DNA from: Haloglomus litoreum
GTDB taxonomy: Archaea > Halobacteriota > Halobacteria > Halobacteriales > Haloarculaceae
Direction: 5' to 3'
DNA: 64,000 bases
Assembly (NCBI RefSeq): GCF_029338515.1
Contig: NZ_CP119988.1
Coordinates: 2,976,001 to 3,040,000 of the forward strand
Numbering within the stretch: the first letter of the stretch is position 1; each line of letters starts with the position of its first letter. The position numbers and the translations under genes were made by a program. Shown piece after piece: positions 60,245-61,505 of the stretch. The notes under the pieces are model-generated. The model did not search any database, was not told the origin of the DNA, and was given only the letters and a program-made list of their open reading frames with translations.

Positions 60245-60300
60245 CCACCCCTGGCCGCGAAAGACAGCCCTTTGGCCACGCACGCCCCAACTCCCGGCCA

Positions 60301-61505
60301 TGGAGACGACGGACGCGTTCACCGGGCTGGAGTGTCTGGACTGCGGGGCCTCGTTCGACGCCGCCGACGAGCCGGGGCGGTGTCCCGACTGCGGCGGCGT
60401 CCTCGACCCGACCTACGACTACGACGCGCTGGACCTGACACGCAACTCCTTCGCGCGCGACCCCATCCGCGCCGGCCGCGCCGGTATCTGGCGCTACGAG
60501 GCCGTCCTGCCGTTCCCGCGCGAGGCGGCCGTCACGATGGACGAGGGGGGCACGCCGCTCGTCGAGGCACCCCGGCTGGCCGAGGAACTGGGCGTCGGAC
60601 GCGTGCTCGTCAAGGACGAGGGCCGGAACCCGACGGGCGTGGCCGCCGACCGCGGCGCCGCCGTCGCGGTGTCGGCGGCCGCACAGCACGGCGCGACCGA
60701 CGTGGCGATGGCCTCGCCCGGCAACGACGGCCAGGCGGTCGCCGCGTACGCCGCCCGCGGCGGCATGGACTCGCACACCTTCGTCCCCTCGCGCGCCTCG
60801 TTCGTCAACAAGGCCATGATCAACGTCCACGGCGGCGACATGTACGTCGTCGAGGGGCGCATCGACGACGCCATCGAGGCCTACGAGGACGTCCAGGCCG
60901 AGCGTGACGACTACTACGCGCTCCAGCGGTTCGTCACGCCCTATCGACACGAGGGGCGCAAGACCGTCTACTACGAACTCCTCGAACAGCTCGAGTGGGA
61001 GCTGCCCGACGCCGTCGTCTGCCCGACGGGCGAGGGTGTCGGTCTCGTCGGCGTCCACAAGGCCGCCCGCGAGTGCCGGGACCTCGGGCTGGTCGACGAC
61101 GTGCCGCCACTGTACGCCGCCCAGTCCGACGGCTGCGCCCCCATCGTCGAGGCGTTCGACGAGGGCCGCGACGAGGCCGAGCCGGTGGAGTACCCGGACA
61201 CCATCTGCGGCGACCTGGAGATTCCCGAGCCCGCGCGGAGCGACCTCGTGCTGGACGCCCTGCGCGACACCGGCGGCGGTGCCGTCGCGGCCGACGACCA
61301 GGACATCATGGACACGGCCGCGACCATCGCGCTCCACGAGGGGCTCGAGGCGAGCGTCGCGAGCGCGGCTGCCGCCGCCGGCGCGTGGGAGCTGTCGCAG
61401 GACGAGACGTTCGGCGAGGACGACACCATCGTCCTGCTGGGCGCCGGGGCGGGCAACAAGGACGCCGACACCATCCGGAGCCGGTTGATGGCGAAAGGGA
61501 TGTAG
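60301..61505 (+). CDS. threonine-synthase-like protein lacking the PLP lysine
   Basis: 401 residues... of the threonine synthase fold, with the N-terminal zinc ribbon (LECLDCGASFD...CPDCGG) seen in archaeal members. The scaffold is kept: MDEGGTPLVEAPRLAEELGV, RVLVKDEGRNPTG, FVTPYRHEGRKTVYYELLEQ and YPDTICGDLEIPEPAR. But the PLP motif TFKDRG reads VAADRG (residues 114-119), so the Schiff-base Lys116 is Ala. The phosphate/substrate loop AGNAGQ reads PGNDGQ, and the GGG loop near 240 reads GEG. Catalysis by the usual route is not possible. It may be a pseudoenzyme or do something else. Confidence 0.85.

Follow-up and report, generated by a model that had tools for sequence, protein, structure and literature searches.

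A threonine synthase-like gene of the haloarchaeon Haloglomus litoreum probably encodes a recurrently evolved pseudoenzyme of the fold-type-II PLP family, in which the catalytic lysine and the cofactor loops decayed repeatedly while a PLP-independent role was kept. The gene (60300..61505, + strand) lies in a 64,000-nucleotide stretch of DNA, here called the window, and encodes a protein of 401 aa with a PALP fold and an N-terminal zinc ribbon. In the literature collection searched, this haloarchaeal protein was not the subject of any paper.

Identity of the gene and its cofactor site

The open reading frame begins with an ATG at 60300 and has no internal stops. An earlier sequence-only reading of this DNA had set the start at 60301, which is one base late and breaks the frame. 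Third-position GC content is 0.95, the level to be expected of a real gene given the GC richness of this haloarchaeal window. A PF00291 (PALP domain) match of 222 bits follows the zinc ribbon. The AlphaFold2 model (pLDDT 94.7, pTM 0.93) was most similar to plant threonine synthase 2c2b (Z 50.2, 394 residues aligned, rmsd 2.1), and thus the protein belongs by domain and fold to the fold-type-II (tryptophan synthase beta) superfamily, its fold being intact as modeled. Against NCBIfam, it scored 329.9 bits with PRK08197 (NF006050, cut-off 303) and 140.8 bits with TIGR00260 thrC, below the cut-off of 167.1. The automatic name threonine synthase arises because only the broader PRK08197 model is passed, and this name is probably wrong. 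Sequence, fold and zinc ribbon are shared with the PRK08197 family, which includes lysine-bearing orthologs at the same locus; the difference is that the window protein has lost the lysine and the PLP loops.

These losses are seen in four segments. The former PLP-lysine motif (60624..60656, +) reads RNPTGVAADRG where the family has RNPTGTFKDRG, and residue 116, encoded by GCC (60645..60647, +), is an alanine in place of the Schiff-base lysine. A phmmer alignment set NPTGVAADRG opposite NPTGSFKDRG of the solved threonine synthases 2d1f and 2zsj, with Ala116 facing the lysine, so that the lysine-to-alanine replacement first noticed in the sequence-only reading was borne out. The changes that it had described in the PGNDG and GEG loops were likewise confirmed by comparison with SAGNAGQA and PTGGGVG of lysine-bearing relatives: the asparagine loop is ASPGNDGQA (60711..60737, +; family ASAGNAGQA) and the phosphate loop is PTGEGVG (61023..61043, +; family PTGGGVG). 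Judging by the role of this loop in known fold-type-II structures, E245 would presumably occupy the binding place of the PLP phosphate. The C-terminal pyridine-side loop is also altered, to LGAGAGNKD (61437..61463, +; family LNTGAGNKD), which changes T382 to Ala. The window protein therefore has neither the lysine of the (S/T)FKDRG motif of ThrC, nor an intact phosphate loop, nor a pyridine-side Thr or Ser, and it is more degraded than most of its relatives. The zinc ribbon is retained, as had been noted together with the open frame: cysteines C12, C15, C28 and C31 (60333..60392, +) are present here and in most lysine-less relatives.

The sequence-only reading had further proposed a search for a second thrC with an intact motif, whose absence together with threonine prototrophy would count against a different role. 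We detected three further relatives in this genome. One of them, L002, contains the lysine motif NPTGSFKDRGM as well as STGNTSA and PVGNAGN, and scored 290 bits with TIGR00260 (cut-off 167); on these grounds, a canonical thrC is present. Positions 210-211 are Asn-Ser in canonical ThrC, and we take these residues to be the substrate-phosphate ligands of the Thermus enzyme. In window-type proteins they are TF or variable, and even haloarchaeal relatives with the lysine have other residues at this pair, implying from sequence comparison that the ancestor of the locus proteins may already have had a different substrate. Disruption of thrC3 (HVO_2969) alone by a transposon made Haloferax volcanii auxotrophic, and a mixture of glycine, serine and threonine rescued the mutant (PMC4300041). 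This result would fit a situation in which only one of several paralogs is the genuine threonine synthase, and that gene may correspond to the canonical clade described here.

Recurrent lysine loss at one locus in Halobacteriales

Homologs (E 1e-70 or better) were detected in 277 of 293 Halobacteriales genomes, the sampled genomes being a subset, and a few genomes had none above this threshold. We aligned 188 distinct homologs, with loci from many families, of which 79 contained the lysine (including seven canonical ThrC or other outgroup sequences) and 109 did not; the set was picked to include lysine-less copies, and the ratio of 109 to 72 is no frequency. With 109 distinct lysine-less homologs collected, chance is excluded as the origin of the lysine loss. 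Lysine-less versions occurred in most Halobacteriales families and persisted throughout whole genera. Position 116 was Lys in all lysine-bearing relatives and Ala, Thr, Leu, Val, Arg, Asp, His, Phe, Tyr, Glu, Gly or Gln in the others. In the genus of the window organism, one genome has SFKDRG, two have TFTDRG, one has TFDDRG and the window has VAADRG. The two TFTDRG Haloglomus genomes have an ACG codon where the lysine-bearing sister has AAG, and their other PLP motifs are intact. Conservation of VAADRG across species, raised in the sequence-only reading, was not observed, the genus alone showing Lys, Thr, Asp and Ala; its contrary concern, that the altered motif might be confined to one strain, was removed by the finding of lysine loss in many genomes. 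A purposeful replacement by alanine was rejected given the free variation at this position among lysine-less proteins, and strain-specific decay or a sequencing error was rejected given the same state in many genomes. Outside Halobacteriales, one phylum-wide search returned weaker matches, for the most part one in each genome, in the score range expected for canonical ThrC.

Phylogenetic analyses pointed to repeated loss. With PLP-motif columns masked, a FastTree phylogeny required 14 losses under Dollo or 6 changes under Fitch parsimony (9 and 5, respectively, without masking). An IQ-TREE analysis of 84 sequences under a profile mixture gave 7 state changes, at least 4 of which were forced by strongly supported branches. 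The one-origin topology appeared in none of 200 bootstrap trees of this analysis, and the AU test rejected a single lysine-less clade (lnL difference 357, p-AU 4.4e-5). Some of the changes may be regains, notably in a TVKDRG group of three sequences (L133, L135 and L138; family f1, genus g11). The lysine is kept in this group, although its phosphate loop has decayed to PLDGTAG, PLEGTEG or PQEGTDG; this lysine is either a late remnant or was regained without function.

The gene neighborhood is shared by both versions. A divergent gene for a FAD amine-oxidase-type flavoprotein (PF01593; 58652..59938, - strand; no NCBIfam match at E 1e-30) precedes the window gene, and the divergent arrangement was found in the family of the window organism (f1) and in f4. 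This flavoprotein gene adjoins the locus in many families, for lysine-bearing and lysine-less versions alike; in the full set of aligned loci, it lay no more than 700 bp from 59 lysine-less and 16 lysine-bearing versions. A membrane-protein gene takes its place next to both versions in Natrialbaceae. Shared neighbors imply that the lysine was lost in place, and the observations together indicate that it was lost several times at one vertically inherited locus, not once. Shared synteny and the AU test both contradict a single ancient lysine-less paralog, and this reading was rejected. The neighborhood gave no functional clue: conservation of the flavoprotein gene and of the downstream HD, GNAT, DtxR or eIF2-alpha/L44e genes follows family lines and points to no single pathway. 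Downstream of the window gene is a gene for a probable secreted plastocyanin/azurin-type copper protein (PF00127; 61716-62504, - strand), which had no match at the syntenic locus of four related genomes compared.

Selection, the locus signature and rival explanations

Pairwise, approximate dN/dS values (NG86) were 0.10-0.35 for lysine-less pairs, with a median of 0.18, and the median for lysine-bearing pairs was also 0.18. The window gene had values of 0.25-0.28 against its congeners, and its neighboring genes ranged over 0.13-0.42 in the same comparisons. Neither a disrupted frame nor a dN/dS near 1, as in a pseudogene, was seen for the window gene, which combines loss of the catalytic residue with an open frame and purifying selection, as in a pseudoenzyme. 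A window-type gene is thus not decaying in general. The sequence-only reading had proposed selection for a different role; conservation of the fold and purifying selection after loss of the site are in line with this proposal, but the loss occurred several times rather than once.

Broken copies were also observed. In two genomes, the locus gene was matched in two pieces, as if split by a frameshift (G120:C1:549324-550552 and G251:C1:343289-344485), and both genomes retain an intact, lysine-bearing second copy. Given these split copies and the few genomes without a homolog, the locus protein is not universally needed. Of two Natrinema hispanicum records, one has a frameshifted C-terminus (L048) and the other is intact (L045).

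Loss of conservation was enriched in the cofactor motifs. Among columns with 95% or higher conservation in the lysine-bearing set, the four PLP motifs held 11 of the 31 that were lost in lysine-less proteins versus 7 of the 65 that were kept (Fisher p 0.0099). Outside these motifs, we identified a six-residue signature common to lysine-bearing and lysine-less orthologs of the locus: N175 and R187 (in 60822..60860, +), P299 and E307 (in 61194..61220, +), and M397 and G400 in its C-terminal part (61488..61499, +). The six residues occurred in 98-100% of locus-type lysine-bearing and 96-100% of lysine-less proteins, but in only 0-6% of 17 second copies that keep every PLP motif; these second copies are lysine-bearing paralogs located elsewhere in some genomes and form one clade. 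P299 and E307 were present in 100% of both locus types and in 0% of the second-copy paralogs. N175 itself was used to separate the lysine-bearing groups and is not independent; the other five residues are. As the strongest hint obtained, the signature suggests, from sequence conservation, a PLP-independent function older than the lysine loss, although it could instead reflect structural, lineage-specific features rather than a binding surface.

Other explanations have to be weighed against this evidence. The window protein might still be the organism's threonine synthase and act by an unusual mechanism, as the automatic annotation and the PRK08197 score imply, but this is extremely improbable: the lysine that the mechanism requires is absent, TIGR00260 is passed by L002 with its intact motif and missed by the window protein, and the substrate-side pair at 210-211 is changed. 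The auxotrophy caused by the thrC3 insertion alone would argue in the same direction, provided that the counterpart of thrC3 here is the canonical paralog. Continued use of PLP, through another lysine such as K105 or K171 or noncovalently, is very unlikely. K171 is kept in 108 of the 109 lysine-less proteins; however, it is equally conserved in canonical ThrC and so is not a new lysine, and K105 is absent in several lysine-less lineages (ADEG, VDEG). Solved structures of Lys-to-Thr mutants of tryptophan synthase beta hold active-site ligands (e.g., 2tys), which would favor continued use, but here the GGG phosphate loop and T382 were lost in the same proteins.

We regard it as unlikely, too, that the emptied pocket gained a new, PLP-free catalytic activity and that the protein is still an enzyme, of another kind. 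Near-invariance of D117, R118, Q145, K171, H177, R216, Q275 and D333 in lysine-less proteins would fit such an activity, yet most of these polar residues show the same degree of conservation in canonical PLP threonine synthases, no new residue was gained at the lysine position, and the pocket loops vary freely among lysine-less lineages, unlike a shared new active site. Similarly doubtful is a decaying gene, made redundant by duplication or by a sufficient canonical ThrC and on its way to a pseudogene. The split frames in two genomes, the frameshift in one Natrinema hispanicum record and the loss of the PLP loops would agree with decay. Against it are the low dN/dS values among lysine-less pairs, the maintenance of both the locus signature and the columns outside the PLP motifs, the endurance of lysine-less copies over whole genera, and the open frames of 109 distinct lysine-less sequences from many families, although a collection based on long ORFs under-counts broken copies.

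Proposed role, precedents and significance

The preferred explanation, repeated conversion to a pseudoenzyme, would start from a vertically inherited haloarchaeal locus encoding a protein with a PLP-independent role, either in addition to catalysis or in its place. Since this role needs no cofactor, decay of the lysine and of the loops for phosphate and pyridine would have recurred in separate lineages, and the fold, the zinc ribbon and the locus-specific residues would meanwhile have been held by purifying selection. The window protein would then neither bind PLP covalently nor make threonine. It may be a dimer that serves as a binding or allosteric partner, or a metabolite sensor, possibly interacting through a surface with N175, R187, P299, E307, M397 and G400. 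A more tentative proposal, which we put forward with somewhat less than even confidence, is that the locus protein was bifunctional before the lysine loss and that lineages independently dropped the enzyme half while an order-wide PLP-independent role stayed.

Noncatalytic relatives of PLP enzymes have precedents. SPTLC1/LCB1 of serine palmitoyltransferase is a PLP-fold subunit without the lysine and is the partner of an active homolog; it differs in being of fold type I and in forming a known obligate heterodimer. AZIN1 and ADC are ornithine decarboxylase homologs that lack activity and regulate a pathway (PMC2748086). They resemble the window protein as inactive homologs of a PLP enzyme with a regulatory role, but are animal proteins of another fold type with antizyme as a known partner. 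Within the same fold, the closest precedent is a TSB-like pseudoenzyme of plants, a noncatalytic tryptophan synthase beta paralog that carries E190A and D386E as key changes and allosterically activates its partner TSA (PMC12727527). It, too, is a fold-type-II PLP enzyme that became noncatalytic and was kept for an allosteric role. However, it is a paralog whose key changes, according to that paper, do not include loss of the PLP lysine, whereas in haloarchaea the lysine and loops were lost repeatedly in same-locus orthologs. For the window protein, a noncatalytic role in binding or regulation is the most likely one, and it may be a regulatory partner of threonine synthase.

In the usual case, a pseudoenzyme is a single ancient paralog. 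At this locus, orthologs occur at graded stages, with the lysine present, the lysine alone gone or all PLP loops gone, and in several independent series, which allows a direct test of which parts of a PLP enzyme are dispensable as long as its other function persists. If the proposal of a bifunctional ancestor is true, the locus provides natural replicates of the conversion of an enzyme to a pseudoenzyme. Since the NF006050 cut-off admits the lysine-less window protein, such haloarchaeal proteins are labeled threonine synthase, probably wrongly in many cases, and this misannotation would mislead metabolic models. A PLP-independent role, if found, would be a hidden second function of a threonine synthase relative, present order-wide in archaea.
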